Shown here piece after piece: positions 4,285 through 57,233 of a stretch of DNA of 64,000 nucleotides (position 1 is its first letter; each line of letters begins with the position of its first letter). Under the pieces are notes generated by a model. The model was not told where the DNA came from and searched no databases. It worked only from the letters and a program-made list of their open reading frames with translations. The translations under genes were made by a program, and so were the position numbers. The stretch is taken from positions 124,001 through 188,000 of IMG/VR virus record IMGVR_UViG_3300023174_000038; one strand, written 5' to 3'. Origin of the DNA: a virus.

Positions 4285-4285
4285 C

Positions 4286-4657: not shown

Positions 4658-4658
4658 A

Positions 4659-5627
4659 ATGGTTAAAAGATATTATGGTGGTGTAATATCTGCTACACAA
4701 GCAGTAGCCAATGCTATATCAGCCTCTGGATTTTTTAATACTAGCCAGCAGATGCAGGCAACCCAAGCTCAAAACTGGCCATCACTCTTACCATCAATAG
4801 AATATCTAGTGATTGCTGGTGGCGGTGGTGGTGGTACGTTTGAGTCTTCAGCTTTTTCAGGTGGAGGTGGTGGAGCCGGTGGCTATAGAACTGCATCCGG
4901 ATTACAAGTTATTGCGGGATCTCCTATTACGGTTACAGTTGGTGCAGGTGGTGGTGGTAGTACTAACAGAACTGCGCCAGGTTCCAATGGATCTAATTCT
5001 GTGTTTGGTTCAATTACCTCTACTGGCGGAGGCGGCGGGGGTTCAGACGCCAGCTCTTCAGGCTTGTCTGGCGGGTCCGGAGGAGGTGGCGCTGCAAGTT
5101 TTAGCGCTAACGCCAATGGTGGCGCAGGAAATACCCCGTCAACTTCCCCTTCACAAGGAAATAACGGAGGTCTGAGTTATGGGGTCGCTGGCGGCTACGG
5201 AAATGGTGGAGGTGGAGGTGGAGCCGGTGCCGCCGGGCAAGCTTCTGGAACTACGCCGAGCTCTGCTAATAAAGGCGGCGATGGTGGTGCAGGTACATCA
5301 TCATCTATATCAGGCTCAACTGTCATCTATGCAGGTGGAGGTGGAGGAGCCGGATATCAAAACTCTGCCGCCGGAACTGGTGGAGGTGGGACTGGCTGGA
5401 GTAGTGTAGGACAAACAGCAACAGCAGGTACAGTTAACACCGGCGGAGGTGGCGGAGGTAATGGATATACAGGTGGAAACGGAATGTCAGGGGGTTCCGG
5501 CATTGTAATCATTCGCTATGGAGACACATATGCAGCCGCAACAAGTACAACAGGTAGTCCAACAATAACTGTAGCCGGTGGATATAGAGTTTACAAATGG
5601 ACCAGCTCAGGATCAATAACATTCTAA
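4659..5627 (+). CDS. Glycine-rich adhesin-like protein, 322 aa
   Basis: A short non-repetitive head (residues 1-48) is followed by YLVIAGGGGGG and many poly-Gly runs (GGGGGAGG, GGGGGS) up to about residue 275. A C-terminal module follows, with IVIIRYGDTY, TSTTGSPTITVAGGY and RVYKWTSSGSITF. The same end module closes the next two genes. In T-even phages, polyglycine sandwiches build receptor-binding tips such as the gp38 adhesins, so a role as a distal fibre adhesin is plausible but inferred. The ATG at 4659 lies one base after the upstream stop, with GAGGAT as a ribosome-binding site inside the upstream gene. Confidence 0.7.
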   Translation: MVKRYYGGVISATQAVANAISASGFFNTSQQMQATQAQNWPSLLPSIEYLVIAGGGGGGTFESSAFSGGGGGAGGYRTASGLQVIAGSPITVTVGAGGGGSTNRTAPGSNGSNSVFGSITSTGGGGGGSDASSSGLSGGSGGGGAASFSANANGGAGNTPSTSPSQGNNGGLSYGVAGGYGNGGGGGGAGAAGQASGTTPSSANKGGDGGAGTSSSISGSTVIYAGGGGGAGYQNSAAGTGGGGTGWSSVGQTATAGTVNTGGGGGGNGYTGGNGMSGGSGIVIIRYGDTYAAATSTTGSPTITVAGGYRVYKWTSSGSITF

Positions 5628-13800: not shown

Positions 13801-16800
13801 CAGCAAATGGCAATATCAACTTAACTGCAGTTGGAAATACAACTATGGTTGTTACTGGAACTGGGGTTAACGTAGCAGGTACATTAAATGTAACCGGTAA
13901 TGCTACAATTGGTAATATCACTACAGGTGCAGGATCTGGCGGCAATATCACTGGTGCTAATGTAATATCAGCTAATACTTTTACTGCATCTGGTAATATA
14001 ACTGGTGGTAACGCCAACTTAGGTAATAACGTATCTGCTAACTACTTCACTGGCAATCTCTATGGCACAGCTAATCTAGCTACATATGCAACAACAGCTA
14101 ACAGTGTAGCCGGTGCTAATGTATCTGGTCAAGTAGCTAATAGTTTAATATCTGGTACAGTATATACAAACGCACAACCAAACATAACTAGTGTCGGTAC
14201 ATTGAGTAGTTTAGCAGTAACAGCTAATATTACTTCCGGTAATGCTAATTTAGGAAATAACGTAACAGCTAACTATTTTACAGGAAATGGTAGTTTATTA
14301 ACTGGTATTACAGTTAGTGCTGGTAATACTATAGTTAATGGGAATAGTAATGTATTAGTATCTGCAAACGGAAACGTAACTACTAGTGTTGCAGGTAATG
14401 CTAATATACTAATTGTAACTGGCACTGGTGTTAATGTAGCCGGTACGTTAAATGTTACAGGTAATGCGACTGTTGGCAACATTGTTACGTCTGGATCAGG
14501 GGGTAACGTATCTAATGTTAATGTTATATCAGCTAACACATTCATTGCATCCGGTAATCTTACAGCAGGTAACATCAATACAACTGGTTCAGGAGGTAAT
14601 ATTGGTAATGCCAATGTCATCTCAGCTAATACATTTACTGCATCCGGCAATATAACAGCAGGCAATGCTAACTTGGGTAATAGTGCAGTAGCTAATTATT
14701 TTACTGGTAACTTTTATGGAACAGCTAACTTAGCAACTTATGCAACTACTGCTAATAGTGTTGCCGGCGGTAATGTATCCGGACAAGTAGCTAATGCATT
14801 GATATCAGGCACTGTATATACAAATGCACAACCAAATATCACTAGTGTTGGAAGTTTAACTGGCTTAACTGTAAGTAACGCATCAGGTGTGGTTAATTTT
14901 ATAACTACTTCCAATGTATCATTGGGTGCTGTAGGCAATGTAAAAATTACAGGTGGTACTACTGGTCAATATTTATCTACTGATGGATCTGGTAATCTCT
15001 CATGGTCTACTGTAAGTAGTGGGTCAACCAGTAACATCAGCAATGGAAATAGTAATGTAAATATACCGGCTGCTAATGGCAATGTAAACATAAGCGCAGT
15101 TGGTAATGCAAACATACTAGTAGTAACAGGCACCGGGGTTAATGTAGCAGGTACATTAAATGTAACCGGTAACGCTACTGTGGGTAATATTGTCACGTCT
15201 GGTTCTGGTGGTAATGTATCTAACGTTAACGTCATATCCGCGAATACATTTATTGCTAGTGGCAACTTAACTGCGGGTAATATCAATACAACAGGTAGTG
15301 GTGGTAACATTGGTAATGCTAACGTTATCTCAGCAAACACATTCACAGCAAGTGGCAACATAACTTCTGCCAATGCTAATTTAGGTAATAGCGCAGTAGC
15401 TAATTACTTTACTGGTAACTTCTATGGAACAGCTAACTTGGCAACATATGCAACTACTGCTAATAGTGTTGCAGGTGCTAACGTTTCTGGACAAGTAGCT
15501 AATGCATTGATATCAGGTACTGTATACACAAATGCACAACCCAATATTACAAGTGTTGGCACCTTAACAGGTATAACAAGTACCGGTACTGCTAATTTAA
15601 CCGGTGCAAGTAACGTAGCATTAGGTCCAGTTGCCAATGTACATATTACCGGAGGTACATCAGGTCAATATCTATCAACAGATGGATCTGGTACATTATC
15701 ATGGTCTACTGTAAGTTCTGGCGCCGCAAGTAATATCAGCAACGGAAATAGTAATGTAAACATACCAGCCGCAAATGGAAATGTTAATATTAGTGCAGTG
15801 GGCAACGCCAACATATTAGTTGTAACAGGCACTGGTGTTAACGTAGCCGGCACATTAAATACAACAGGTAATACTACAGTTGGTAATCTATTCAGTAGTG
15901 GTAGTGGTGGTAACATATCCAACGTTAATGTTATATCAGCTAACACCTTTACTGCTAGTGGTAATATAACAGCAGGTAATGTGGTAACATCTGGCTCTGG
16001 TGGTAACATTAGCAACGCAAACGTTATATCAGCTAATACATTTACCGCATCCGGTAACATCACATCTTCTAATGCTAATTTAGGTAATGCAGCCACAGCT
16101 AATTTCTTTATTGGATCTGGTAACAACTTAAGTAACATACAAGCCGCCAATATATCCGGACAAGTAGCTAATAGTTTAATAGCCGGGACAGTCTATACAA
16201 ATGCACAACCTAACATAACAAGTGTTGGTTCATTGACTGGCTTAACAGTAAGTAATGCAACAGGTGTTGTAAATCTTACAACTACTGCAAACGTAACTCT
16301 CGGAGCCGTAGCTAATTTACATATTAGTGGTGGTACCTCAGGTCAATACTTATCAACGGATGGATCTGGTACATTATCTTGGTCTACAGTTTCTAGCGGC
16401 TCAACAAGTAATATCAGCAATGGAAATAGTAATGTAAATATACCAGCTGCAAATGGTAACGTTAATATATCTAGTGCTGGTAATGCAAACATATTAATTG
16501 TAACTGGCACTGGCGTTAATGTAGCAGGAACATTAAACACAACAGGTAATACAACTGTTGGTAATCTATTCAGTAGTGGTAGTGGTGGTAACATTAGCAA
16601 TGTCAATGTTATATCAGCTAACACCTTTACTGCAAGCGGTAACATAACTGCTGGCAATGTTGTAACATCTGGTTCAGGTGGTAATATTAGTAATGCAAAC
16701 GTTATTAGTGCAAATACATTTAGTGCATCTGGTAACATTACTTCGGGTAATGCTAACTTAGGTAATAGCGCAATTGCTAACTACTTCACTGGTAACTTCT

Positions 16801-19800
16801 ATGGAACAGCTAATCTAGCTACCTATGCCACTACTGCAAATGCGGTAGCAGGAGCTAATGTTTCTGGACAAGTGGCTAATGCATTAGTTGCGGGAACAGT
16901 TTATACAAACGCACAACCAAATATAACTTCAGTTGGTAGTTTAACTGGCTTAACAGTAAGCAATGCAACTGGGGTGGTTAATTTAACAACTACAGCAAAC
17001 GTAACTCTTGGTGCTGTAGCTAACTTACACATCAGTGGTGGTACTAGTGGTCAATATCTATCAACTGATGGATCTGGCACATTAACCTGGTCTACAGTAA
17101 GTGCAGGAGCCGCAAGTAACATCAGTAATGGCAATAGTAATGTAAACATACCAGCCGCAAATGGTAACGTTAATATATCTAGTGCCGGTAATGCTAATAT
17201 TGTAGTAGTTACCGGTACTGGAGCAAATATAACCGGCACACTAAATGTAACTGGCAATGCAACAGTTGGTAATATAGTAACTAGTGGTTCAGGTGGTAAT
17301 GTATCTAATGTTAACGTTATATCTGCAAACACTTTTATTGCATCTGGTAATCTTACTGCAGGAAACATCAGTACAACAGGCAGTGGTGGCAACATTGGTA
17401 ATGCTAATGTTATATCAGCTAATACATTCACTGCATCCGGTAATATCACATCTGCTAATGCTAATTTAGGTAATAGTGTTGTAGCTAATTACTTTACTGG
17501 TAACTTCTATGGAACGTCAAACTTAGCTACATATGCTACAACTGCAAATGCAGTAGCCGGAGGCAATGTCTCTGGTCAAGTAGCTAATGCACTAGTAGCC
17601 GGTACAGTGTATACAAATGCACAACCAAACATAACTTCAGTTGGTTCATTAACCGGCTTAACTGTAAGCAACGCAACCGGTGTAGTTAATCTAACTACGA
17701 CAGCTAATGTAACGTTAGGAGCCGTGGCTAACTTGCACATATCAGGCGGTACATCAGGTCAATATCTATCAACTGATGGATCTGGCACATTAACTTGGTC
17801 TACGGTAAGTGCAGGAGCTGCGAGTAACATTGCAAATGGCAATAGTAATGTAAATATACCAGCCGCAAATGGTAATGTTAACATCAGTGCTGTAGGTAAT
17901 GCTAACGTATTAGTTGTAACAGGTACGGGAGTCAACGTAGCGGGTACATTGAATGTGTCAGGTAATACAACGGTAAGTAATTTGATATCATCAGGCGCCG
18001 GAGGTAATATTAGTAATGCTAATGTCATTAGTGCTAACACATTTAGTGCTACTGGTAATATCACGGTAGGTAATTTAGTAACTAGTGGTAGTGGTGGTAA
18101 TATTACAGGTGGTAATGTTATTAGTGCTAATACATTAACTGCTAGCGGTAATATTACAGCCGCTAATGCAAACTTAGGCAACAGTGTTGTAGCTAATTAC
18201 TTTACTGGTAATTTCTATGGAACAGCTAATACTGCAACAACAGCCGGTACTGTAACTACTGCGGCACAACCAAATATCACATCAGTTGGAAGTTTAACTG
18301 GCTTAACAGTAAGCAATGCAACTGGGGTGGTTAATTTAACAACTACAGCTAATGTCACTTTAGGTGCAGTAGGTAACTTACACATCAGTGGTGGTACATC
18401 AGGTCAATATTTACAAACAGATGGCTCTGGTACATTAACTTGGGCTACTGTAAGTTCCGGATCAACTAGTAACATCAGTAATGGAAATAGTAATGTAAAC
18501 ATCCCAACTGCAAATGGTAATGTTAACATTAGTGCTGTTGGTAATGCAAATATATTAGTTGTGACCGGTACGGGAGTTAATGTAACAGGTACATTGAACA
18601 CAACAGGTAACACGACTGTCGGTAATCTATTCAGTAGTGGATCCGGTGGTAACATATCTAATGTCAACGTTATATCAGCTAATACATTTACTGCATCCGG
18701 TAACATCACATCTGCTAATGCTAACTTGGGTAATAGTGCAGTAGCTAATTATTTCACTGGTAACTTTTATGGAACAGCTAACTTAGCAACTTATGCAACT
18801 ACTGCAAATGCGGTAGCAGGTGGTAATGTATCTGGACAAGTAGCTAATGCATTAGTCTCAGGTACTGTATATACAAATGCACAACCTAATATCACTAGCG
18901 TAGGTAGCTTAACTGGTCTAACTGTAAGTAATGCAACAGGTGTAGTTAATTTCACTACTACTGCAAATGTAACATTGGGTGCAGTAGCTAATTTACATAT
19001 AGCAGGTGGTACTAATGGACAATACTTATCAACAGATGGATCTGGAACATTAACATGGTCTACTGTCAGTTCTGGATCTACTAGTAACATCAGTAACGGA
19101 AACAGTAATGTAAATATCCCAGCTGCAAATGGTAATGTTAACATCAGTGCTGTAGGTAATGCTAACATATTAGTTGTAACTGGTACAGGGGTTAACGTAG
19201 CAGGTACACTAAACGTTTCAGGCAATACTACTGTAAGTAATTTAATATCATCGGGCACTGGTGGAAATATTAGTAATGCAAATGTCATTAGTGCTAACAC
19301 ATTTAGTGCTACTGGTAATATAACAGTAGGTAATTTAGTAACTAGTGGTAGCGGTGGCAATATAACTGGTGGTAACGTTGTATCTGCAAACACACTAATC
19401 GCTAGCGGCAACATTACAGCCGCTAATGCTAACTTAGGTAATAGCGTAGTAGCTAATTACTTTACTGGTAACTTCTATGGAACTGCTAATTCAGCAACTA
19501 CTGCTAGCACGGTCACAACTGCGGCACAACCAAATATCACATCAGTTGGTACATTATCTGGCGTAACAAGTACAGGAACAGTTAATTTAACTGGTGCTAG
19601 TAATGTATCATTGGGACCAGTCGGTAATGTAAAAATTACAGGTGGTACCAATGGTCAATATCTACAAACAGATGGCTCTGGTACATTAACATGGGCTACA
19701 GTCAGTAGTGGTTCATCAAGTAACATCAGTAACGGAAACAGTAATGTAAATATTCCATCAGCTAATGGCAATATCAATCTAACTGCAGTTGGTAATACAA

Positions 19801-22800
19801 CTATGGTAATTACTGGTACTGGTGTTAATGTAGCCGGTACATTAAACACTTCAGGTAATACTACAGTTGGTAATCTATTCAGTAGCGGATCTGGTGGTAA
19901 TATTAGTAATGTTAATGTCATATCAGCTAATACATTTACTGCATCCGGTAATATTACATCAGGTAACGCTAATTTAGGTAATAGTGTAGTAGCTAATTAC
20001 TTCACTGGTAACTTCTATGGAACAGCCAATCTAGCAACTTATGCAACTACTGCTAATGCGGTAGCCGGTGGTAATGTTTCAGGACAAGTAGCTAATGCAT
20101 TGATAGCAGGTACAGTATATACAAATGCACAACCAAATATCACAAGTGTTGGTAGCTTAACTGGATTAACAGTTAGTAATGCAACCGGTGTAGTAAACTT
20201 TACAACTACGGCTAATGTAACTCTCGGAGCTGTGGCAAATCTACACATAGCAGGTGGTACTAATGGTCAATACTTGTCAACAGATGGTTCTGGTACATTA
20301 ACATGGTCTACGGTTAGTAGTGGTTCATCAAGTAATGTCAGTAATGGCAATAGTAACGTAAACATACCGGCAGCTAATGGCAACGTTAACATTAGTGCTG
20401 TAGGTAATGCAAATATTGTAGTTGTAACTGGCACTGGAGTTAATGTAGCCGGTACACTAAACGTTTCAGGTAATACAACTGTTGCTAATTTGGCTACAAC
20501 TGGCACTGGTGGCAATATATCTAATGTTAATGTTATATCAGCTAATACATTTACTGCTAGTGGTAATATCACTGCCGGTAATGCTAATTTGGGTAATGCA
20601 GTAATCGCTAATTTCTTCATTGGTTCAGGTGCTAATTTAACAAGTTTAACCGGTGCTAATGTATCTGGACAAGTAGCCAATAGCTTAATAGCTGGCACAG
20701 TTTATACAAACGCACAACCAAATATTACAAGTGTTGGTACACTAACCGGAATAACAAGTACCGGAACAGTCAATTTAACTGGTGCTAGTAATGTATCATT
20801 AGGTCCTGTAGGTAATGTAAAAATCACAGGTGGTACTAATGGTCAATATCTATCTACTGATGGATCAGGAAATCTATCTTGGTCTACCGTTGCAGGTGGT
20901 TCATCAAGCAACATAAGTAATGGAAACAGCAACGTAAACATACCGGCAGCTAATGGTAACGTTAACATTAGTGCTGTGGGTAATGCAAACATATTAGTTG
21001 TAACAGGCACCGGTGTTAATGTAGCCGGCACATTAAATGTTTCAGGCAACACCACTGTTGCTAATTTGGCTACAACTGGCACCGGTGGTAATATCAGTAA
21101 CGTAAATGTAGTTTCAGCTAATACATTCACTGCTAGCGGCAATATAACTGGCGGTAATTTAGTAACCAGTGGTGGTAATATTACAGGTGGTAATGTCGTT
21201 TCAGCTAATACGTTAATTGCTAGTGGTAATATTACATCAGGTAATGCTAACTTAGGTAATTTAGTTACAGCTAACTTCTTTAGTGGTAATGGCAGTTTAT
21301 TAACTGGTATTACCGTTAGTGCAGGCAATTCAATTGTAAATGGCAACAGTAATGTAGTAGTATTTGCAAATGGTAATGTAACGACTAGTGTTGCAGGCAA
21401 CGCAAACATTTTAATTGTAACTGGCACCGGAGTTAACGTCTCTGGTACATTGAATGTTACAGGTAATACTACTGTAGGTAACTTAGTTACTAGTGGATCA
21501 GGTGGTACATTATCTAATATTAACGTTGTATCAGCTAATACTTTTACTGCATCTGGTAATATTACAGGAGCTAATGCTAACTTAGGTAATAGTGTAATTG
21601 CTAATTACTTCACGGGTAATTTTTACGGAACTGCCAACTCAGCAACAACTGCAGGTACAGTTACAACTGCGGCACAACCAAATATTACATCAGTTGGTAC
21701 ATTAACTGGTGTAACAAGTACAGGCACTGTCAATTTAACTGGTGCTAGTAATGTATCATTGGGCCCAGTAGCTAATGTACATATTACAGGTGGTACTAAT
21801 GGTCAATATCTATCTACTGACGGGTCTGGTACATTATCTTGGTCTACCGTCAGTTCAGGCGCCGCAAGTAATATTGCAAATGGCAATAGTAATGTAAACA
21901 TACCATCAGCTAATGGCAATGTTAATATCAGTGCAGTTGGTAATGCCAATGTTGTAGTAGTCACTGGCACAGGAGCTAACATTGCTGGTACACTAAATGC
22001 TACAGGTAATATTATTGCCGGTGGAGGGACCGGTGGTAGTATAACTGGTGCTAACTCAATTAGTGCTAATTACTTTATTGGTACCTTATATGGAACAGCT
22101 AACTTAGCAACTTATGCAACAACAGCTAATAGTGTAGCTGGTGGTAATGTCTCCGGACAAGTAGCTAACGCATTAGTCTCAGGTACTGTCTATACAAATG
22201 CACAGCCAAACATCACATCAGTTGGATCATTAACTGGATTAACAGTAAGCAATGCAACAGGAATTGTTAATTTCACAACTACCGCAAACGTAACTCTTGG
22301 TGCTGTAGCTAACTTACATATAGCAGGTGGTACTAATGGTCAATATCTGTCTACTGATGGATCAGGAAATCTATCTTGGTCTACAGTTAGTAGTGGTTCA
22401 TCAAGTAATGTCAGTAATGGAAATAGTAATGTAAACATCCCGACAGCTAACGGTAATATTAACTTAACTGCAGTTGGTAATACAACTATGGTGGTAACTG
22501 GCACTGGTGTTAATGTAGCCGGTACATTAAATGTTACAGGTAATACTACTGTAGGTAACTTAGTTACTAGTGGATCAGGTGGTACATTATCTAATATTAA
22601 CGTTGTTTCTGCTAATACATTTACTGCATCAGGTAACATAACATCCGGTAATGCTAACTTAGGTAATAGTGTAACTGCTAATTATTTTATTGGATCCGGT
22701 AATAACTTAAGTAACATACAAGCCGCTAATGTATCTGGACAAGTAGCCAACGCATTAGTCTCAGGTACTGTCTATACAAATGCACAACCAAATATAACAA

Positions 22801-25800
22801 GTGTCGGTTCACTAACTGGGTTAACTGTAAGCAATGCAACAGGTGTAGTTGATTTTACAACTACAGCTAATGTCACATTAGGAGCAGTTGCTAACGTACA
22901 TATCAGTGGTGGCACTAATGGATATGTATTAAGTACAAATGGATCAGGCGCATTAAGTTGGGTAGCTCAATCGGGTGGAGGTGGTGGTAGTAATATCAGT
23001 AATGGAAACAGTAATGTTAACATACCGGCTGCTAATGGAAACGTTAACATAAGTGCAGTTGGTAATGCTAATGTAGTAGTAATTACTGGTACTGGAGCAA
23101 ATATCACCGGTACAGCAAATATTACCGGTAATCTAAGTGCAGGTAATATCATTGCTGGTTCAGGTTCAGGTGGTAACATATCTAATGCAAATGTTATTTC
23201 AGCTAATACATTCACCGCTACTGGTAATATAACTAGTGGTAATGCTAATTTGGGTAATAGTGTAACTGCTAATTACTTCACTGGTAACTTCTATGGTACA
23301 GCTAACTTAGCTACATACGCAACTACTGCTAATAGTGTTGCCGGTGCTAATGTATCTGGACAAGTAGCTAATAGTTTAATAGCCGGCACAGTATATACAA
23401 ATGCACAACCAAACATAACATCAGTTGGTACATTAACCGGTATAACAAGTACCGGAACAGTTAATTTAACTGGTGCAAGTAACGTATCATTGGGACCTGT
23501 AGGTAATGTAAAAATTACAGGTGGTACTAATGGGCAATATCTATCTACTGATGGATCAGGAAATCTATCTTGGTCTACTGTAGCAAGCGGTTCATCAAGT
23601 AATATCAGTAATGGAAACAGTAATGTAAATATACCAGCCGCTAATGGCAATATTAATCTAACTGCAGTTGGTAATACAACTATGGTTATTACTGGCACAG
23701 GGGTTAATATAGCAGGGACATTAAACACTTCAGGTAATATTACATCAGGTAATGCTAATTTAGGTAACAGTGTAACTGCTAATTACTTCACTGGTAACTT
23801 CTATGGAACAGCTAACTTAGCAACTTATGCAACAACAGCTAATAGTGTAGCTGGTGGTAATGTCTCCGGACAAGTAGCTAACGCATTAGTCTCAGGTACT
23901 GTCTATACAAATGATCAACCAAATATCACTAGTGTTGGATCATTAACTGGTTTAACTGTAAGCAACGCCTCAGGTGTAGTTAATTTCACTACTACTGCAA
24001 ATGTAACACTAGGTGCAGTTACTAACGTACATATCAGTGGTGGCACTAATGGTTATGTATTAAGTACAGATGGATCAGGAACATTAAGTTGGGTAGCCCA
24101 ATCAGGTGGAGGTGGAGGCGGTAGTAATATCAGTAATGGAAACAGTAATGTAAACATACCAGCCGCTAATGGAAACGTTAACATATCAGCAGTTGGTAAT
24201 GCTAATGTAGTAGTAATTACTGGTACCGGGGCAAACATCACTGGTACAGCAAATATTACCGGTAATCTAAGTGCAGGTAATATCATTGCTGGTTCAGGTT
24301 CAGGTGGTAATATATCTAATGCAAACGTTATCTCAGCTAATACATTTACTGCATCTGGTAATATCACATCCGGTAATGCTAACTTGGGTAATAGTGCAAC
24401 TGCTAATTATTTTACTGGTAACTTTTATGGAACAGCTAACTTAGCAACTTATGCCACTACAGCTAATAGTGTTGCAGGAGCTAATGTATCTGGACAAGTA
24501 GCTAATGCATTGATATCAGGCACCGTATATACAAATGCACAACCCAATATCACATCAGTTGGTACACTAAGTAGTTTAGCAGTAACAGCTAATATCACAT
24601 CCGGTAATGCTAACTTGGGTAATAGTGCAGTAGCTAATTATTTTACTGGTAACTTTTATGGAACAGCTAACTTAGCAACTTATGCCACTACAGCTAATAG
24701 TGTTGCAGGTGCTAATGTATCTGGACAAGTAGCTAATAGTTTAATAGCCGGCACAGTATATACAAATGCACAACCTAATATCACTAGCGTAGGTAGCTTA
24801 ACTGGTCTAACTGTAAGCAACGCAACCGGTGTAGTTAATTTCACTACTACTGCAAATGTAACATTAGGTGCAGTTGGAAATCTACATATTTCTGGTGGTA
24901 CAAGTGCATATGTGTTAAGCACTGATGGTGCTGGTAATTTAAGTTGGGTAGCTCAAACAGGAGGTGGAGGCGGCAGTAATATCAGTAATGGAAACAGTAA
25001 TGTAAACATACCGTCTGCTAATGGAAACATTAATTTAACCGCAGTTGGCAATACAACTATGGTAATTACTGGTACTGGTGCAAACATAGCCGGTACAGCA
25101 AACATAACTGGTAATTTAAGTGCAGGAAATATCATTGCTGGTTCAGGATCAGGTGGTAATATATCTAATGCAAATGTTATCTCAGCTAACACATTTACTG
25201 CATCCGGCAACATAACTGCAGGTAATTTATCTATAACTGGTCTATCTAATTTAGGTGCAGTAGGTAATGTTGTCATTACAGGCGGAACCAATGGTTATGT
25301 GTTAAGTACAAATGGCTCAGGTGGATTAAGTTGGATTGCATCTGGTGGCGGTGGAGCCAATATTAGTAACGGCACAAGTAATATTAATATTGCGGCATCA
25401 GGTGGTAACATCACAATGGGTGTTGGTGGAACAGCAAATGTAGTAGTTGTTAGTACTACTGGCATTTCAGCTGCCATACAACCTAGAGTTGTAACTATTG
25501 CAGACGGAACATCAATTAGTATAAATGCTGATACTACTGATATGGCTATTCAAACAAATACACAAGCGGCCGGTACATTAACTATTAATGCACCATCAGG
25601 GACCTTATATCAAGGTCAAAAAATTATGTTAAGATTGCAATCTACTAATGTACAAACGTTCAGTTGGAATGCAGTGTTTAATAGTTCAACAGATTTAAAT
25701 TTACCTACAACATCATCCGGAAGTAGTAAATATGATTATATAGGATTTATATATAATTCAACTCAATCAAAATGGAATATAATTGCCAAAAACTTTGGCT

Positions 25801-25805
25801 TCTAA
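10833..25805 (+). CDS. Giant 4990-aa Asn/Gly/Thr repeat fibre protein
   Basis: This single uninterrupted 15-kb gene starts MAITKLQPFNLDTTANYTF and contains about 24 copies of a module marked by NGNSNV, NVISANTF, NANLGNSVTANYF, NAQPNITSVG and GGTNGQYLSTDGSG. Copies are usually 150-250 residues and differ by omission or swapping of sub-blocks. Lys, Arg and Glu are almost absent for thousands of residues; Asp occurs mainly in TDGSG. The last ~110 residues are a different, non-repetitive cap (from VVTIADGTSISINADTT to the end KNFGF). Regular Asn/Gly/Thr spacing suggests a beta-solenoid with Asn ladders. It is a paralogue of the protein at 1-4284. A very long tail-fibre or whisker shaft is the most likely role, by inference from context. 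Confidence 0.75.
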   Translation: MAITKLQPFNLDTTANYTFANITATNANLGNAATANYFIGSGNNLSNIQGANVTGAVSSATTSGTVTTAAQPNITSVGTLSGVISTGNVNLTSASNVALGPVANVHITGGTTGQYLQTDGSGNLSWSTVSSGAASNISNGNSNVNIPSANGNINLTAVGNTTMVITGTGVNVAGTLNVTGNTTVGNLVTSGSGGTLSNINVVSANTFTASGNITSGNANLGNSVTANYFTGNFYGTANLATYATTANSVAGGNVSGQVANALISGTVYTNAQPNITSVGTLSSLAVTANITSGNANLGNNVTANYFTGNGSLLTGITTSGLSNGNSNVNIPAANGNVNISAVGNANILVVTGTGVNVAGTLNVTGNATVGNIVTSGSGGNVSNVNVISANTFIASGNITAGNVVTSGSGGNISNANVISANTFTASGNITSANANLGNAVIANFFIGSGNNLSNIQAANVSGQVSNSLISGTVYTNAQPNITSVGSLTGLTVSNATGVVNFTTTANVTLGAVANLHISGGTSGQYLSTDGSGTLSWATVSSGASSNISNGNSNVNIPSANGNVNISAVGNANILVVTGTGVNVAGTLNATGNASLGNLVTTGSGGNISNANVVSANTFIASGNITAGNVVTSGSGGNISNANVISANTFTASGNITSGNANLGNSAVANYFTGNLYGTANLATYATTANAVAGGNVSGQVANALISGTVYTNAQPNITSVGTLSSLAVTANITSGNANLGNLVTANYFTGNGSLLTGITVSAGNSIVNGNSNVSIPAANGNVNISAVGNANIVVVTGTGANISGTLNISGNTTVSNLISSGSGGNISNANVVSANTFTASGNITAGNITTGAGSGGNITGANVISANTFTASGNITGANANLGNSVTANYFIGNFYGTANSATTAGTVTTAAQPNITSVGTLTGITSTGTVNLTSASNVSLGPVGNVKITGGTTGQYLSTDGSGNLSWSTVSSGSSSNISNGNSNVNIPSANGNINLTAVGNTTMVVTGTGVNVAGTLNVTGNATIGNITTGAGSGGNITGANVISANTFTASGNITGGNANLGNNVSANYFTGNLYGTANLATYATTANSVAGANVSGQVANSLISGTVYTNAQPNITSVGTLSSLAVTANITSGNANLGNNVTANYFTGNGSLLTGITVSAGNTIVNGNSNVLVSANGNVTTSVAGNANILIVTGTGVNVAGTLNVTGNATVGNIVTSGSGGNVSNVNVISANTFIASGNLTAGNINTTGSGGNIGNANVISANTFTASGNITAGNANLGNSAVANYFTGNFYGTANLATYATTANSVAGGNVSGQVANALISGTVYTNAQPNITSVGSLTGLTVSNASGVVNFITTSNVSLGAVGNVKITGGTTGQYLSTDGSGNLSWSTVSSGSTSNISNGNSNVNIPAANGNVNISAVGNANILVVTGTGVNVAGTLNVTGNATVGNIVTSGSGGNVSNVNVISANTFIASGNLTAGNINTTGSGGNIGNANVISANTFTASGNITSANANLGNSAVANYFTGNFYGTANLATYATTANSVAGANVSGQVANALISGTVYTNAQPNITSVGTLTGITSTGTANLTGASNVALGPVANVHITGGTSGQYLSTDGSGTLSWSTVSSGAASNISNGNSNVNIPAANGNVNISAVGNANILVVTGTGVNVAGTLNTTGNTTVGNLFSSGSGGNISNVNVISANTFTASGNITAGNVVTSGSGGNISNANVISANTFTASGNITSSNANLGNAATANFFIGSGNNLSNIQAANISGQVANSLIAGTVYTNAQPNITSVGSLTGLTVSNATGVVNLTTTANVTLGAVANLHISGGTSGQYLSTDGSGTLSWSTVSSGSTSNISNGNSNVNIPAANGNVNISSAGNANILIVTGTGVNVAGTLNTTGNTTVGNLFSSGSGGNISNVNVISANTFTASGNITAGNVVTSGSGGNISNANVISANTFSASGNITSGNANLGNSAIANYFTGNFYGTANLATYATTANAVAGANVSGQVANALVAGTVYTNAQPNITSVGSLTGLTVSNATGVVNLTTTANVTLGAVANLHISGGTSGQYLSTDGSGTLTWSTVSAGAASNISNGNSNVNIPAANGNVNISSAGNANIVVVTGTGANITGTLNVTGNATVGNIVTSGSGGNVSNVNVISANTFIASGNLTAGNISTTGSGGNIGNANVISANTFTASGNITSANANLGNSVVANYFTGNFYGTSNLATYATTANAVAGGNVSGQVANALVAGTVYTNAQPNITSVGSLTGLTVSNATGVVNLTTTANVTLGAVANLHISGGTSGQYLSTDGSGTLTWSTVSAGAASNIANGNSNVNIPAANGNVNISAVGNANVLVVTGTGVNVAGTLNVSGNTTVSNLISSGAGGNISNANVISANTFSATGNITVGNLVTSGSGGNITGGNVISANTLTASGNITAANANLGNSVVANYFTGNFYGTANTATTAGTVTTAAQPNITSVGSLTGLTVSNATGVVNLTTTANVTLGAVGNLHISGGTSGQYLQTDGSGTLTWATVSSGSTSNISNGNSNVNIPTANGNVNISAVGNANILVVTGTGVNVTGTLNTTGNTTVGNLFSSGSGGNISNVNVISANTFTASGNITSANANLGNSAVANYFTGNFYGTANLATYATTANAVAGGNVSGQVANALVSGTVYTNAQPNITSVGSLTGLTVSNATGVVNFTTTANVTLGAVANLHIAGGTNGQYLSTDGSGTLTWSTVSSGSTSNISNGNSNVNIPAANGNVNISAVGNANILVVTGTGVNVAGTLNVSGNTTVSNLISSGTGGNISNANVISANTFSATGNITVGNLVTSGSGGNITGGNVVSANTLIASGNITAANANLGNSVVANYFTGNFYGTANSATTASTVTTAAQPNITSVGTLSGVTSTGTVNLTGASNVSLGPVGNVKITGGTNGQYLQTDGSGTLTWATVSSGSSSNISNGNSNVNIPSANGNINLTAVGNTTMVITGTGVNVAGTLNTSGNTTVGNLFSSGSGGNISNVNVISANTFTASGNITSGNANLGNSVVANYFTGNFYGTANLATYATTANAVAGGNVSGQVANALIAGTVYTNAQPNITSVGSLTGLTVSNATGVVNFTTTANVTLGAVANLHIAGGTNGQYLSTDGSGTLTWSTVSSGSSSNVSNGNSNVNIPAANGNVNISAVGNANIVVVTGTGVNVAGTLNVSGNTTVANLATTGTGGNISNVNVISANTFTASGNITAGNANLGNAVIANFFIGSGANLTSLTGANVSGQVANSLIAGTVYTNAQPNITSVGTLTGITSTGTVNLTGASNVSLGPVGNVKITGGTNGQYLSTDGSGNLSWSTVAGGSSSNISNGNSNVNIPAANGNVNISAVGNANILVVTGTGVNVAGTLNVSGNTTVANLATTGTGGNISNVNVVSANTFTASGNITGGNLVTSGGNITGGNVVSANTLIASGNITSGNANLGNLVTANFFSGNGSLLTGITVSAGNSIVNGNSNVVVFANGNVTTSVAGNANILIVTGTGVNVSGTLNVTGNTTVGNLVTSGSGGTLSNINVVSANTFTASGNITGANANLGNSVIANYFTGNFYGTANSATTAGTVTTAAQPNITSVGTLTGVTSTGTVNLTGASNVSLGPVANVHITGGTNGQYLSTDGSGTLSWSTVSSGAASNIANGNSNVNIPSANGNVNISAVGNANVVVVTGTGANIAGTLNATGNIIAGGGTGGSITGANSISANYFIGTLYGTANLATYATTANSVAGGNVSGQVANALVSGTVYTNAQPNITSVGSLTGLTVSNATGIVNFTTTANVTLGAVANLHIAGGTNGQYLSTDGSGNLSWSTVSSGSSSNVSNGNSNVNIPTANGNINLTAVGNTTMVVTGTGVNVAGTLNVTGNTTVGNLVTSGSGGTLSNINVVSANTFTASGNITSGNANLGNSVTANYFIGSGNNLSNIQAANVSGQVANALVSGTVYTNAQPNITSVGSLTGLTVSNATGVVDFTTTANVTLGAVANVHISGGTNGYVLSTNGSGALSWVAQSGGGGGSNISNGNSNVNIPAANGNVNISAVGNANVVVITGTGANITGTANITGNLSAGNIIAGSGSGGNISNANVISANTFTATGNITSGNANLGNSVTANYFTGNFYGTANLATYATTANSVAGANVSGQVANSLIAGTVYTNAQPNITSVGTLTGITSTGTVNLTGASNVSLGPVGNVKITGGTNGQYLSTDGSGNLSWSTVASGSSSNISNGNSNVNIPAANGNINLTAVGNTTMVITGTGVNIAGTLNTSGNITSGNANLGNSVTANYFTGNFYGTANLATYATTANSVAGGNVSGQVANALVSGTVYTNDQPNITSVGSLTGLTVSNASGVVNFTTTANVTLGAVTNVHISGGTNGYVLSTDGSGTLSWVAQSGGGGGGSNISNGNSNVNIPAANGNVNISAVGNANVVVITGTGANITGTANITGNLSAGNIIAGSGSGGNISNANVISANTFTASGNITSGNANLGNSATANYFTGNFYGTANLATYATTANSVAGANVSGQVANALISGTVYTNAQPNITSVGTLSSLAVTANITSGNANLGNSAVANYFTGNFYGTANLATYATTANSVAGANVSGQVANSLIAGTVYTNAQPNITSVGSLTGLTVSNATGVVNFTTTANVTLGAVGNLHISGGTSAYVLSTDGAGNLSWVAQTGGGGGSNISNGNSNVNIPSANGNINLTAVGNTTMVITGTGANIAGTANITGNLSAGNIIAGSGSGGNISNANVISANTFTASGNITAGNLSITGLSNLGAVGNVVITGGTNGYVLSTNGSGGLSWIASGGGGANISNGTSNINIAASGGNITMGVGGTANVVVVSTTGISAAIQPRVVTIADGTSISINADTTDMAIQTNTQAAGTLTINAPSGTLYQGQKIMLRLQSTNVQTFSWNAVFNSSTDLNLPTTSSGSSKYDYIGFIYNSTQSKWNIIAKNFGF
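11336..11512 (+). repeat. 177-nt direct repeat, copy A
   Basis: By direct comparison, this stretch inside the giant gene is identical base for base to 22505-22681, about 11.2 kb away, whereas most module copies differ at many synonymous sites. Recent duplication or gene conversion is the likely cause. Confidence 0.8.
22505..22681 (+). repeat. 177-nt direct repeat, copy B
   Basis: Identical to 11336-11512. A shorter related stretch sits at about 21450-21540. All lie inside the giant repeat gene. Confidence 0.8.
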
Positions 25806-53555: not shown

Positions 53556-54032
53556 ATGAGTGACAAACCAAATTCAGCTAACGGTGTCAGTAGTTATGAT
53601 TCTACTGGTACCGGATCACTAATTCATTTTTTTAATCGTAATGTTACACCCTACGCTACGGAATCTAGTGGGCCTAAATTTGATTTAGTACCCGTTGAGA
53701 AGCATAAAGATATTATGCTTAATGTTGCAAGATTACATGCCAAGCAAGAATATGATAGAATTATGGAGCTTGTTGCTGTATTACAGAAACAAGCTGAACA
53801 GATTAAACATAGATTAGACTTAACTGATATGGTTCACGCAGCCAAATATGACTTTCAATTATTCAATGGACAAATATATTGGTTGTTATACGACCATAGA
53901 AAACAATTTACTAGATTAAGTATTAATGGTCCCAATGATTGGTCAACTGGTAAACCTGTTGATTATGAATATATATGTAAAGTTAAATGGTTAGGTGACC
54001 ACACTTGGATAGAGGTAGAAGATGATAAGTAG
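53556..54032 (+). CDS. DUF2452-like conserved protein, 158 aa
   Basis: PYATESSGPKFDLVPVEKHK, MLNVARLHAKQEYDRIMELV and NGPNDWSTGKPVDYEYICKV match my recollection of the DUF2452 family, present in phages and bacteria with no known function. A central amphipathic helix (residues ~55-90) is likely to form a coiled coil. The next gene overlaps its end by 11 nt. Confidence 0.72.
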   Translation: MSDKPNSANGVSSYDSTGTGSLIHFFNRNVTPYATESSGPKFDLVPVEKHKDIMLNVARLHAKQEYDRIMELVAVLQKQAEQIKHRLDLTDMVHAAKYDFQLFNGQIYWLLYDHRKQFTRLSINGPNDWSTGKPVDYEYICKVKWLGDHTWIEVEDDK

Positions 54033-54585
54033 TAGTCCAGAAAAACATACCTTTCAGAAAGAAGGTTATGTTAAACGTTGTGAAGAAGAAGGAAAGTTGC
54101 CTAATCCTGACTATATTGAAATGTATAAGTCTTGGAAACAGCAAACATTAGAACTTGAAGAATCTGATGAGTGGAAAGTAGATAACATGGAGTATGACCT
54201 ACGTTCTACTCAATGGATCATTGACAAAGTAAAGGCTGATGATGTATATGCACAACATCTTTATGCTTCTATGTGTAACAATGATTTCACTAAGAATGAT
54301 GTATGGCCTATATTAACTGAGAAAAAATGGAGTTGTAGTTGGAGACATGCCGGCGGTATAATTGCTGATATGCAAGAGAAGGGCGACTATATTGATTGGT
54401 ATTGTTCTGGTATTAAAGATAGTAAGATACTAGATGATGATGAATTTCGTGCCCTTACTAAAGAACAACAAGAATCGTACATTCAAGGTAAAAAGTTTGT
54501 TCCAGAAAGTTGTGTAACTGATGAGATACGAGAAGATTTGTTAAAGTTGGGTTGGATTGTAATTGATGATAAAGAAGAATACTAA
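54022..54585 (+). CDS. Conserved phage protein of unknown function, 187 aa
   Basis: An acidic protein starting MISSSPEKHTFQKEGYVKRC, with LRSTQWIIDKVKADDVYAQHLYA and WSCSWRHAGGIIADMQEKGDY. Similar proteins recur next to DUF2452-like genes in T4-like aquatic phages as far as I recall; no function has been assigned. Translation is coupled to the previous gene by an 11-nt overlap. Confidence 0.65.
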   Translation: MISSSPEKHTFQKEGYVKRCEEEGKLPNPDYIEMYKSWKQQTLELEESDEWKVDNMEYDLRSTQWIIDKVKADDVYAQHLYASMCNNDFTKNDVWPILTEKKWSCSWRHAGGIIADMQEKGDYIDWYCSGIKDSKILDDDEFRALTKEQQESYIQGKKFVPESCVTDEIREDLLKLGWIVIDDKEEY

Positions 54586-54588
54586 ATA
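54581..54588 (+). promoter_or_regulatory. Late promoter (ACTAAATA)
   Basis: This variant late octamer overlaps the stop of the preceding gene and lies 22 nt before the 38-residue ORF at 54611, with AAGGAG in between. Confidence 0.5.
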
Positions 54589-54610
54589 CAATACATACAA
54601 GGAGTATATT

Positions 54611-54727
54611 ATGTTAGAAACATTATTTTGGTTAGCACTAGGTGCTTTTATTGGTTGGAATTTCCCTCAACCTCAGTTTGCAAAGAACATTCAAACAAAA
54701 ATTTTAACTATGTTCAAAAAGGATTAA
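54611..54727 (+). CDS. Small single-span membrane protein, 38 aa
   Basis: MLETLFWLALGAFIGWNF is a hydrophobic N-terminal helix, followed by PQPQFAKNIQTK and a basic end (MFKKD). AAGGAG (54599-54604) is well placed. Small proteins of this layout occur in T4-like aquatic phages. Inner-membrane location is predicted; the role is unknown. Confidence 0.65.
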   Translation: MLETLFWLALGAFIGWNFPQPQFAKNIQTKILTMFKKD

Positions 54728-54752
54728 TAACCCTCACAAACGGGAGCACCTA

Positions 54753-54760
54753 GATAAATA
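54753..54760 (+). promoter_or_regulatory. Late promoter (GATAAATA), 5 nt before ATG
   Basis: GATAAATA with exactly 5 nt (GTTAT) before ATG 54766 and no ribosome-binding site; probably a leaderless transcript of the HNH gene. Confidence 0.55.
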
Positions 54761-54765
54761 GTTAT

Positions 54766-55371
54766 ATGAAAAATAAATATGGCTTATTAGTGTATTGCTC
54801 GCATTGTGGAACTGAGTTTGTAACTAAACCTAGATTTTTAGAGTTTTGTTCAACTCCTTGTAAAAACCCGATCAATCGTGTAGGTAATATACCTTGGAAC
54901 AAGGGTATAAAAATGACACCTGATCAGGTGTCCAAATTAAACACAAAAGGTCTTAAAAAGGGTCACGGATGGAACAAGGGGAAAGATAATCCAAGACAAA
55001 AAGAAAAATGGACTGGCTCATCAAATCCAAATTGGGAAGGAAAATTAAACAATCAAAGGCCTAAAAAACAAATAAATGATGAATTAGTTAAATACAAGAG
55101 GGAATGTAGGAAAGCAACTCGCCGGTCTCTATACAGACTTAGAAAGCAAAATTTAATGCCAGTCACTGGCAAAAAGAAAACAGATATTCAAGTAGATCAT
55201 ATCATACCCTTTAGACAGGGATATGAACTTAAAATTGACCCTATAATTATAGGACATCTATGCAATTTAAGATTTATAACAGGTGAAGAAAACAGAAAGA
55301 AATGGGATACGTTTCAATCTGAGGAAATAATTAATAATATATTGGAGAACTATAATGGCATATTCAGATAA
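54766..55371 (+). CDS. HNH homing endonuclease next to iscU, 201 aa
   Basis: The N-terminal zinc finger YCSHCGTEF...FCSTPCKN (residues ~10-35) is followed by NUMOD3-like DNA-binding repeats (IPWNKGIKMTP, GHGWNKGKDNP, SSNPNWEGK). The HNH core is IQVDHIIPFRQGYE...HLCNLRFITGEENR. The last 17 nt overlap the start of iscU, which itself carries a stop-containing insertion about 100 nt further on. This mirrors the T4 arrangement of MobA and the bypass-containing gene 60. No ribosome-binding site is seen; a late promoter ends 5 nt before the ATG. Confidence 0.85.
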   Translation: MKNKYGLLVYCSHCGTEFVTKPRFLEFCSTPCKNPINRVGNIPWNKGIKMTPDQVSKLNTKGLKKGHGWNKGKDNPRQKEKWTGSSNPNWEGKLNNQRPKKQINDELVKYKRECRKATRRSLYRLRKQNLMPVTGKKKTDIQVDHIIPFRQGYELKIDPIIIGHLCNLRFITGEENRKKWDTFQSEEIINNILENYNGIFR

Positions 55372-55753
55372 AGTGGTTGACCACTACGAAAACCCACGAA
55401 ATGTGGGAACTTTTAATAAGGAGGACACGCACGTTGGGACTGGTATGGTAGGAGCCCCGGCGTGTGGTTAGTTAGGTGATGTAATGAAACTCCAAATAAA
55501 AGTAAATAAAGAAACAGGAATTATAACAGATGCCAAATTTAAAACATATGGGTGTGGGTCGGCAATTGCTTCTTCAAGTCTTGTCACAGACTGGGTCAAG
55601 GGTAAAACATTGGATGAAGCAACATCCATTAAAAACTCCCATATTGCCGACGAACTCAGCCTCCCCCCAGTCAAAATCCACTGCAGTATCCTCGCCGAAG
55701 ACGCCATCAAAGCCGCAGTAGAAGATTATAGAAAGAAGTATAATGGCCAATAA
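55355..55753 (+). CDS. iscU: IscU Fe-S scaffold, interrupted by an in-frame TAG insert
   Basis: IscU assembles 2Fe-2S clusters on three cysteines. MAYSDKVVDHYENPRNVG and GMVGAPACG (Cys37) are followed in frame by TAG-TTA-GGT (55469-55477) and then DVMKLQIKV, KTYGCGSAIASSS and VKIHCSILAEDA. E. coli IscU reads GAPACGDVMKLQ, so the only departure is a 9-nt insert with a stop between two GGT codons. Because all other active residues are intact, the gene is probably functional through ribosome hopping or stop readthrough; a recent disruption or base-calling error is the alternative. A restart at ATG 55484 would lack Cys37. TTGGAGAAC precedes the start. Confidence 0.8.
55466..55477 (+). other. Candidate translational bypass site GGT-TAG-TTA-GGT
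   Basis: Take-off codon GGT (55466-55468), stop TAG (55469-55471), TTA, then a matching landing codon GGT (55475-55477). Slippage of the Gly peptidyl-tRNA from the first GGT to the second omits 9 nt and yields the normal IscU sequence. T4 gene 60 uses the same logic (GGA, UAG, later GGA) over 50 nt. SD-like AAGGAGG lies upstream at 55418-55424. Not proven. Confidence 0.5.
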
Positions 55754-56045
55754 ATTAGCAAAATTTTTAAACTCACAACGCCGTCATCGGGACGAACTAG
55801 CAGTTAAGAAACAAGTTAAGATAGCAAAAGCACACGGATTAACAAATAAAGATAAAGCAATAAAAGAACCACATAGATTAGCAAAACATCATGCTATGGA
55901 TTGTGGTATCCCAGGATGTCCTTTATGTAGTAACCCACGTAGGTCACATAAAGACAAACTTACAGCACAAGAGAAACGTTTGTTTCAGGACGTTGAGAAA
56001 ACGACAGATAAACACAGTAACGGATTACCACCTAGTAACGAATAA
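55743..56045 (+). CDS. Small basic Cys-motif protein, 100 aa
   Basis: MANKLAKFLNSQRRHRDEL begins a Lys/Arg-rich protein with CGIPGCPLCSNPRRSH, a possible metal-binding knuckle (Cys-x4-Cys-x2-Cys plus His). Its ATG overlaps the iscU end by 11 nt. Proteins like this are found in aquatic T4-like phages without known role; nucleic-acid binding is possible given the charge. Confidence 0.62.
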   Translation: MANKLAKFLNSQRRHRDELAVKKQVKIAKAHGLTNKDKAIKEPHRLAKHHAMDCGIPGCPLCSNPRRSHKDKLTAQEKRLFQDVEKTTDKHSNGLPPSNE

Positions 56046-56061
56046 GTTACCCGTTTCAATG

Positions 56062-56091
56062 TATAAATAATATTGAGTATGTTATACTCAA
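56062..56091 (+). promoter_or_regulatory. Late promoter (TATAAATA) and leader hairpin
   Basis: TATAAATA at 56062-56069, followed by TTGAGTAT-GTT-ATACTCAA (56073-56091), a perfect 8-bp stem at the very 5' end of the predicted ahpC transcript. AAGGAGA lies 8-9 nt before ATG 56119. Confidence 0.65.
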
Positions 56092-56118
56092 ACAGACTAT
56101 TACACACAAGGAGAAAAT

Positions 56119-56694
56119 ATGAAAACAGTCGGAGATAAATTAACAGCATTTGCAATTACAGGTGTCAAACCAGGACAACCAGAAGATGCATACTTCACAA
56201 TTACAGAGAAATCATTTGAAGGTAAGTGGAAAGTAATCGTTTACTATCCAAAAGACTTTACATTTGTATGTCCTACAGAAATTGTAGCCTATGACAAGTT
56301 GACTACGGACTTTGCTGACCGTGATGCAGTATTGCTCACAGGATCAACAGACAATGAGTTCTGTAAGACTGCTTGGCAAAAAGCACATCCTGACTTAGCA
56401 AAGATTAGTCATACTCAGTTTGCTGACACACAACGCCGTAGCAGTGAGTATAATGAAGACACCGGACGCTATGAAAACTTCAGTCTGATTGAACAATTAG
56501 GTGTATTCTATGCCCCCGCTGGTGCGGCACTACGTGCAACATTTATTGTTGATCCACAAAATGTTATTCAACATATTACAGTTAACAACTTAGATGTTGG
56601 TCGTAACCCAGAAGAAACATTGCGTGTATTAGATGCATTACAAACTGGCGAACTATGTCCATGTAATCGTGCTATCGGTGGAGAAACACTATAA
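56119..56694 (+). CDS. ahpC: Alkyl hydroperoxide reductase C-type peroxiredoxin, 191 aa
   Basis: Reduces organic peroxides and H2O2. FTFVCPTEI gives the peroxidatic Cys51 and GELCPCNR the C-terminal Cys180/Cys182. A double C-terminal cysteine of this kind is characteristic of the mycobacterial-type AhpC, which is regenerated by AhpD rather than AhpF. The next gene is indeed an AhpD-like protein, overlapping it by one base (TAATG). Expression is from a late promoter with a hairpin leader and a strong ribosome-binding site, so it likely protects late infection. Confidence 0.9.
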   Translation: MKTVGDKLTAFAITGVKPGQPEDAYFTITEKSFEGKWKVIVYYPKDFTFVCPTEIVAYDKLTTDFADRDAVLLTGSTDNEFCKTAWQKAHPDLAKISHTQFADTQRRSSEYNEDTGRYENFSLIEQLGVFYAPAGAALRATFIVDPQNVIQHITVNNLDVGRNPEETLRVLDALQTGELCPCNRAIGGETL

Positions 56695-57233
56695 TGAATC
56701 CAATCACCTTAAATGGTGATTGGGTACAATCTGTAAAAGATAGTATTCCAGATCACTCTAAAGACATTAAACTAAACATTGATGCAGTTATTAATCGTTC
56801 AGGATTAGATCCAGTTGATACACATGCTATTGCTTATGTATCAGCATTAGCCGCAGGCAATGGTGGTTTAGCATTTGAGATTGAGCATAACAGTCCATTG
56901 TTTAGTAACGAAGCAGAGCGTGAAGCCGCAAAGACAGCCGCAAGTTTGATGGGTCAAAACAATATTTGGTATCCATTTACTGAGATGGCTAATGACGAAT
57001 CAATGAAGGGTTTACCAGCTAGTTTGCGTATGAATGCTTATGCAACTCACGGTGGTGTATCTAAGAAGAAATTTGAAATGTATTCATTAGCCGCAAGTAT
57101 TATTGGTAAATGTCATTTCTGTGTGAAAGCACATTATGATACATTAAAGAAAGAAGGCATGACTACACAAGAGTTGATGGCTATTGGCCGTATTGCTGCC
57201 GTAGTTAATGCTATAGGTAAAGTATCTATTTAA
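56694..57233 (+). CDS. ahpD: AhpD-like alkylhydroperoxidase, 179 aa
   Basis: A carboxymuconolactone-decarboxylase-fold redox protein that reduces AhpC. Glu128, Cys140-x2-Cys143 and His147 match the spacing of M. tuberculosis AhpD (Glu118, Cys130, Cys133, His137). The histidine that sits just before the second Cys in that enzyme is Phe142 here, with His at 141 instead, so proton relay may differ. Length is nearly the same as in bacteria. Its start overlaps the AhpC stop by one base, supporting a working pair. Confidence 0.85.
   Translation: MNPITLNGDWVQSVKDSIPDHSKDIKLNIDAVINRSGLDPVDTHAIAYVSALAAGNGGLAFEIEHNSPLFSNEAEREAAKTAASLMGQNNIWYPFTEMANDESMKGLPASLRMNAYATHGGVSKKKFEMYSLAASIIGKCHFCVKAHYDTLKKEGMTTQELMAIGRIAAVVNAIGKVSI

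Follow-up and report, generated by a model that had tools for sequence, protein, structure and literature searches.

Short stop-containing inserts in phage iscU genes, with an adjoining HNH-like gene and a covarying RNA hairpin: a candidate family of minimal ribosomal bypass

The interrupted iscU gene

The DNA that we analyzed is a 64,000-nt stretch (here called the window) of a 348.7-kb virus record, in which profile searches recovered a single NifU_N match, the iscU gene at 55355-55753 on the plus strand. Its frame is unbroken apart from 9 nt, TAG-TTA-GGT, lying between Gly38 and Asp39, and translation from 55355 reads MAYSDKVVDHYENPRNVGTFNKEDTHVGTGMVGAPACG, a stop, LGDVMKLQIKV...YNGQ, and a final stop. 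The gene is best described in three segments, all on the plus strand: (i) a 5' part encoding Met1 to Gly38 (55355-55468), which ends in the GGT codon of Gly38 (55466-55468), the putative take-off codon of the hop discussed below; (ii) the insert (55469-55477), composed of TAG (55469-55471), TTA (55472-55474), and a second GGT, the putative landing codon (55475-55477); and (iii) a 3' part (55478-55753), in which the frame resumes at Asp39 (GAT from 55478) and runs to the stop, with a NifU_N match at E = 5.1e-36. An earlier note on this DNA had described an IscU frame intact save for a 9-nt insert after Cys37-Gly38, with the GGT before the stop repeated at the end of the insert. Both observations were borne out, the former by the reading of the frame and by the Pfam NifU_N profile, which covers both halves (profile positions 1-35 and 37-124), and the latter at the two codon positions given above. 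The note had also called for a look at related contigs; a 21-mer spanning the insert junction has exact matches in seven other IMG/VR contigs, and a sequencing error is therefore very unlikely. The window protein keeps Cys37, Asp39, and Cys63, which we take to be ligand residues of IscU, along with the LPPVK motif, and the product of a hop, ACGDVMKLQ across the junction, would presumably match Escherichia coli IscU there. Elsewhere in the window, a peroxiredoxin (AhpC/TSA) gene lies a short way 3' of iscU (56119-56694), and positions 10833-25805 hold a 4,990-codon open reading frame (ORF).

Immediately upstream, and overlapping the start of iscU by 17 nt, lies an ORF of 201 aa (54766-55371, plus strand) that putatively encodes a free-standing HNH-type homing endonuclease. 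A DHIIP...N...EENRKKW motif and Cys pairs are kept in 14 aligned relatives, and the protein matches PHROG 5104 (function not known; E = 7.8e-14). Pfam searches gave no match at E ≤ 0.01, and in a relative, HNH_4 appeared below the cutoff. A structural model of the ORF product (pLDDT, 72.3; pTM, 0.49) gave no Foldseek hit at E ≤ 0.001, and a sequence search of solved structures with the HNH-like protein returned nothing relevant. Among the families listed by VIA-align, comparisons of residues 108 to 195 recovered weak matches (Z, 2.0 to 3.3), mostly to HNH/beta-beta-alpha-metal nucleases. The closest matches from isolates are Acinetobacter phage proteins (35 to 45% identity over 36 to 66% of the length).

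A family of inserts at a single codon boundary

Alleles of iscU were gathered from IMG/VR by searches with the iscU 3' part (the best 80 matches of each of two), the HNH-like protein, and patterns describing the insert, and loci without a readable N-terminal part were excluded from the allele counts. The alleles in all sets are related, such that the counts below do not represent independent events. Among 206 distinct alleles read on both sides of the junction, 65 are interrupted, every one of them at the same codon boundary, Gly38|Asp39, and the insert is therefore not a chance occurrence. The inserts are 6 nt (2 alleles), 7 nt (29), 8 nt (16), 9 nt (16), or 10 nt (2) long and thus fall into all three frame classes. 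Their first codon is TGA in 36, TAG in 20, TAA in 8, and TGT in 1 of the distinct alleles (a stop in 64/65); every one of the 65 ends in GGN, with a take-off codon that is likewise GGN; and the spacer between the stop and the landing codon is 0 to 4 nt of variable sequence. Altogether, 23 kinds of take-off codon plus insert are represented. As loci found by the insert patterns had been selected for an insert followed by GGN-GAY-GTN-ATG, the landing codon and the ensuing Asp-Val are best judged from the set chosen by the HNH-like protein, which is free of that demand; all 22 distinct alleles of this set have the same anatomy, including the terminal GGN. The canonical sequence GMVGAPACG|DVM(K/R) is found in 129 of 132 distinct uninterrupted phage alleles that have no HNH gene.

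The take-off and landing Gly codons are identical in 15 of 38 distinct combinations. Both fall in the same decoding half in 27 of the 38, where 20.5 would be expected (P = 0.023); the signal is weak but lies in the direction that a hop would predict, and the other 11 would require re-pairing across decoding halves. A few alleles depart from the general anatomy. Those of the L094/L095/L380 type have the insert TGTTGGA, with TGT in place of the stop and the landing GGA retained, and a later find that lies outside the 65 (L407) has TGTTGAC, with neither a stop as the first codon nor a landing Gly; these alleles may be decaying or may be read by a +1 shift. In L130 (3555-4832), L131, and L192, a probable intein is seen at Cys63 of iscU, besides the stop insert at Gly38. 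In L130 its Hint domains fall below the cutoff and NifU_N resumes in frame, and the far side is also seen in L131.

We also scanned for longer inserts with gaps of 31 to 60 nt and obtained eight matches, five of them iscU genes without an insert at this site and three without an iscU match; the 0- to 4-nt spacer range is therefore not imposed by the 0- to 30-nt limit of the main search. When 84,980 species genomes of bacteria and archaea were scanned for the insert pattern, 23 matches were obtained, and an IscU-like 3' part was found at none of these loci. Among isolate phages, 17 records have an IscU-like match, and the four at ≥60% identity are each in one piece and no longer than the query, with that of C48C1 annotated as a single 372-nt gene.

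Linkage to the HNH-like gene, an empty site, and co-conversion

In 51 of the 60 relatives of the HNH-like ORF that we found, iscU lies 3' of it. Among the best matches listed for the set chosen by the iscU 3' part, the HNH gene or a remnant adjoins five of six interrupted alleles versus 1 of 133 distinct uninterrupted ones (P = 9e-8). Conversely, within the 206-allele set, the 49 alleles with an intact HNH gene include 42 that are interrupted, 7 in which residues of the site are replaced (e.g., DVLQ, DLMK, SCG, and TGLTGSP), and none that is uninterrupted with a canonical site. When remnants are included, eight distinct alleles (L103, L110, L112, L123, L129, L134, L124, and L135) combine an HNH gene or remnant with an uninterrupted iscU; all eight have Leu for Met31 in addition to other site changes, and resistance through substitution rather than insertion is possible in these. 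An allele found after the main count (L383) has a canonical uninterrupted site and, 5' of it, a distant HNH-like match (26% identity over 231 aa; E = 5e-10). Some interrupted alleles retain just the tail of the HNH gene, and 15 of the 65 have no trace of it; one of these (L206) has a GIY-YIG/NUMOD3 endonuclease gene (4206-4790, minus strand) in the HNH place, 5' of the interrupted iscU.

A relative with the same gene order (L001) represents the empty site. In it, the upstream gene passes straight into iscU, and alignment shows that a 624-nt segment of the window (54731-55354, plus strand), which contains the endonuclease gene, is missing. Identity between the two sequences is 84.8% in the upstream region, 71.1% (81/114 nt) in the iscU 5' part, which travels with the cassette, and 96.7% (267/276) in the 3' part. 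After the insert, mismatches occur at offsets 12, 14, 17, and 20 and next at 162, such that the co-conversion signature ends about 21 nt beyond the insert; such a pattern would be expected after gene conversion initiated at a break close to the insert. The cassettes of L012 and L085, both of which have TAGTTAGG as their insert, have 99% of the iscU 5' part and 94% of the HNH 3' end in common, but only 80% of the iscU 3' part. The putative HNH gene is thus located beside its presumed target, is absent from the sister allele, and is accompanied by a co-conversion signature.

A covarying hairpin that ends at the take-off codon

In interrupted alleles, the RNA 5' of the insert can form an 11-bp helix. 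Its 5' arm in the window (CGCACGUUGGG, 55428-55438, plus strand) was found again by folding with no structure imposed, and the last base of its 3' arm (55456-55466, plus strand) is the first base of the take-off codon. Across 32 distinct interrupted sequences, 96.9% of the cells are paired and 37 cells are changed on both sides; the covariation score was reached by none of 500 shuffles, and sliding the partner arm destroys the signal. A total of four doubly changed pairs is by itself ordinary, being reached in 130 of 500 shuffles. The same positions in 80 uninterrupted sequences (of 130 distinct rows) do not rise above shuffles, and RNAalifold recovered the helix unprompted in the interrupted alleles but not in these 80 controls. 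The mean folding energy of the 48-nt stretch is −25.0 kcal/mol in interrupted versus −13.1 kcal/mol in uninterrupted alleles, and 10 or 11 of the 11 pairs form in the 32 interrupted sequences, as against 3 to 9 in all 130 uninterrupted ones. Taken alone, the window sequence folds modestly better than its shuffles (z = −1.99).

The constraint is also visible in the codons. Codon −13 is NCG in 62/65 interrupted versus 2/130 uninterrupted alleles; at codon −12, the corresponding counts for CAN (His or Gln) are 65/65 and 2/130. Pair 12-42 is Watson-Crick in all 32 interrupted sequences as AU (14), CG (14), UA (3), or GC (1); a change on one side alters the amino acid (His or Gln), and a change on the other is silent in Ala36. 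We further searched with a pattern for the 5' arm; among the matches listed, 68 distinct alleles (56 interrupted, 9 uninterrupted, 2 other, and 1 incomplete) were recovered, a pool that includes loci chosen for the insert. At least 25 distinct alleles were newly found by the 5' arm alone (15 interrupted, 9 uninterrupted, and 1 other). These provide the most stringent comparison: among those listed, pair 12-42 is Watson-Crick in 15/15 interrupted versus 2/9 uninterrupted alleles. Pair 15-39, which forms in 15/15 and 8/9, respectively, does not discriminate between them. Since pair 12-42 varies freely and yet stays paired where the insert is present, with one side silent, its behavior points to selection acting on the RNA.

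The complete hairpin also occurs in L350 and L353, later finds that are uninterrupted and have no HNH match and that may represent losses of the insert. The consensus of 64 extended sequences contains the 5' hairpin only, with neither a take-off stem-loop holding the stop nor a 3' stem-loop. As for known RNA families or introns, Rfam gave no match in L130, L131, or L081, and in window positions 54000-56800 it gave a snoRNA hit at chance level and nothing else.

Selection on the 3' part and alternative readings

Over 70 codons 3' of the insert, dN/dS is 0.098 in interrupted alleles (57 distinct, 50 close pairs; L165, which has a further frameshift, was left out) versus 0.083 in uninterrupted ones, indicating that the 3' part is under purifying selection. 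Random further stops, which the earlier note had named as a sign of decay, were looked for and found in only 1 of the 58 interrupted alleles tested. The Asp39-Val40 pair that follows the landing codon is invariant in 65/65, with synonymous changes only (Asp39, GAT in 50 and GAC in 15; Val40, GTA in 38, GTC in 17, GTT in 7, and GTG in 3), and is likewise conserved in the 22 alleles chosen by the HNH-like protein, which were not selected for it.

How the 3' part comes to be translated can be accounted for in more than one way. The Gly-to-Gly hop that the earlier note had proposed is supported by our survey, as it alone gives the same IscU from inserts of 6 to 10 nt, regardless of which of the three stops and which spacer they contain; we favor it because a single mechanism thereby yields an uninterrupted IscU from all five insert lengths. 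Of the alternatives, termination at the stop followed by reinitiation at Met41, to give a split IscU (a 38-residue N-terminal part and the rest), is improbable but the least so. Reinitiation would be indifferent to frame, the window has an ATG 12 nt past the stop, and in alleles with a GGA landing codon, a GGAGA before the ATG could serve as a ribosome-binding site. Under this reading, however, the Gly-Asp-Val preceding Met41 would be untranslated, against its invariance with purely synonymous changes, the HNH-chosen alleles included; L117, with CTT in place of the Met41 ATG, would lack the start; the hairpin 5' of the stop would have no role; and Cys37 and Asp39 would end up on separate chains or be lost. 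Restart through an ATGA start overlap was also considered; it is in frame solely in the 8-nt GGA-TGA alleles and is thus not a general explanation.

Readthrough of the stop or a +1/−1 frameshift at it, yielding IscU with one to three extra residues beside Cys37, appears slightly less probable still. Inserts of 6 and 9 nt keep the frame, those of 7, 8, and 10 nt could be reached by single-base shifts, and a +1 shift would suit the stopless L095/L380 and L407. Nevertheless, readthrough is not a common answer, because the 7-, 8-, and 10-nt inserts are out of frame; each length class would require its own event, and all would add a varying set of residues to the metal-binding loop, while the GGN that ends every insert read except that of L407 would go unexplained. 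Stimulators of readthrough and −1 shifting are usually not located 5' of the site, whereas this hairpin is. No suppressor tRNA is present among the 25 tRNAs of an array in the one phage checked (L344; G000:C1:193400-203100), in which the single tRNA-Gly has the anticodon UCC and which contains all 24 tRNA hits of its record; no tRNA genes were found within the window.

That the insert simply truncates a dead iscU, with the host protein being sufficient, is the least credible reading: HNH remnants and a further lesion (L165) do occur, and one 524-kb record holds a second, intact iscU copy, but the 3' dN/dS of 0.098, the single additional stop in 58 alleles, the probable intein retained in three interrupted alleles, and the covarying hairpin all speak against it. 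The record with two copies, one intact and one interrupted, is that of L090 (G001; 524,565 bp).

A probable homing cassette crossed by a proposed ribosomal bypass

Returning to the hop, we infer from these sequence comparisons that the locus is a homing endonuclease cassette with an insert that protects its carrier and that ribosomes cross by a minimal bypass, aided by the 5' hairpin, a reading to which we assign a probability of roughly 0.85. The cassette would consist of the HNH gene, the iscU 5' half, and the 9-nt insert. The endonuclease probably cuts the intact iscU of rival phages at the conserved cluster-ligand codons APACG|DVMK, and the insert, by splitting this target, would protect its carrier. 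With the ribosome at Gly38 and the stop in the A site, the peptidyl-tRNA-Gly would leave the first GGN, the mRNA would shift by 6 to 10 nt, and the tRNA would re-pair with the second GGN, skipping the stop and 0 to 4 nt; decoding would then resume at Asp39 to give the normal IscU sequence. In the wake of the ribosome, the 5' hairpin probably folds again and draws the mRNA along, an action also suggested for the 5' stem-loop of T4 gene 60; that the hairpin ends at the take-off codon would suit such a role. For the hop, the hairpin would supply a signal and the endonuclease cassette an origin, neither of which was part of the first note.

Viewed more broadly, the alleles probably constitute a widespread, modular class in which a stop, 0 to 4 nt, and a second Gly codon, served mainly by one 5' hairpin, form the protective scar of an HNH or GIY-YIG endonuclease, a generalization that we hold with somewhat less assurance than the reading of the locus itself. 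Within such a class, the lodging of the hairpin in coding sequence would force His or Gln at residue 26.

The primary literature on bypass reportedly includes Weiss 1987 and, for the mobA cassette, Bonocora 2011. The closest counterpart is T4 gene 60 with MobA, with which the iscU element has in common a Gly take-off codon followed by a stop, a Gly landing codon, a 5' hairpin, an adjoining HNH homing endonuclease (putative in the case of iscU), and an insert in a conserved gene that is uninterrupted in relatives (PMC5009743, PMC3014915, PMC2988022, PMC11194080). In the model described for gene 60, the 5' stem-loop folds as the mRNA exits the ribosome and drives its movement (PMC5009743, PMC11194080). 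There are also clear differences. The gene 60 gap is 50 nt, against 6 to 10 nt in iscU; the T4 take-off stem-loop holding the stop and the 3' stem-loop were not found in the iscU consensus; the KKYK nascent-peptide signal of T4 has no equivalent in the 38 residues of the window IscU, where another peptide signal is possible; and the 3' arm of the iscU hairpin extends to the take-off codon, whereas the T4 5' stem-loop lies upstream of it. The gene and the endonuclease family are other than those of T4, and there are many alleles instead of one, with the endonuclease intact in 42 of the 65 interrupted alleles. By this analogy, the iscU element would work like gene 60 with mobA but be a different element. 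The earlier note had envisaged an independent bypass between matched codons, far shorter than that of T4: the shortness stands, whereas the element belongs to a 65-allele family and an exact codon match, seen in 15 of 38 combinations, is evidently not needed.

The other large set of bypass elements is that of yeast mitochondria (PMC5009743). As in iscU, those of Magnusiomyces capitatus comprise many short bypassed inserts with take-off and landing codons that are not always matched; they differ in relying on an unused codon, not a stop, and in being described as independent of mRNA context (PMC5009743), whereas in iscU the site is constant, translation is of the bacterial type, and a hairpin is conserved. 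In-frame stop hopping has no known natural occurrences according to the same review (PMC5009743), and in comparison with the synthetic stop hops made in E. coli, the iscU inserts are natural, under selection, and hairpin bearing and include out-of-frame versions. Another phage gene covered in that review also has a gap much shorter than that of T4, but that gap is described as linked to a UUA codon and a Shine-Dalgarno-like sequence and not to a stop, an insert, or an endonuclease (PMC5009743). Inteins and intron-borne homing elements similarly strike conserved active-site codons of genes that survive; there, survival is through protein or RNA splicing, whereas the iscU insert would be tolerated at the ribosome. 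Homing endonucleases are described as preferring codons for essential residues, and a single gene may be the target of several classes (PMC2988022), an account that the occurrence of both HNH and GIY-YIG genes at iscU fits. Among the matches listed in a literature search that mostly covered sources other than subscription journals, no title or abstract opening concerned a phage iscU with a stop or a bypass.

Implications

Knowledge of efficient bypass in bacterial-type translation comes nearly entirely from one gene, T4 gene 60, which was apparently unique in this respect as of 2010 (PMC3014915), even though counterparts spanning shorter distances have long been presumed (PMC5009743). The stop-hop class, if true, would be the first natural family of its kind and the simplest programmed bypass known. 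With 65 alleles, five insert lengths, three stops, and a covarying hairpin, it would make the minimal requirements of hopping testable with natural variants. The inserts also caution that annotation may label such interrupted genes as broken, and they suggest a route by which homing endonucleases could avoid the cost of scarring an essential site.
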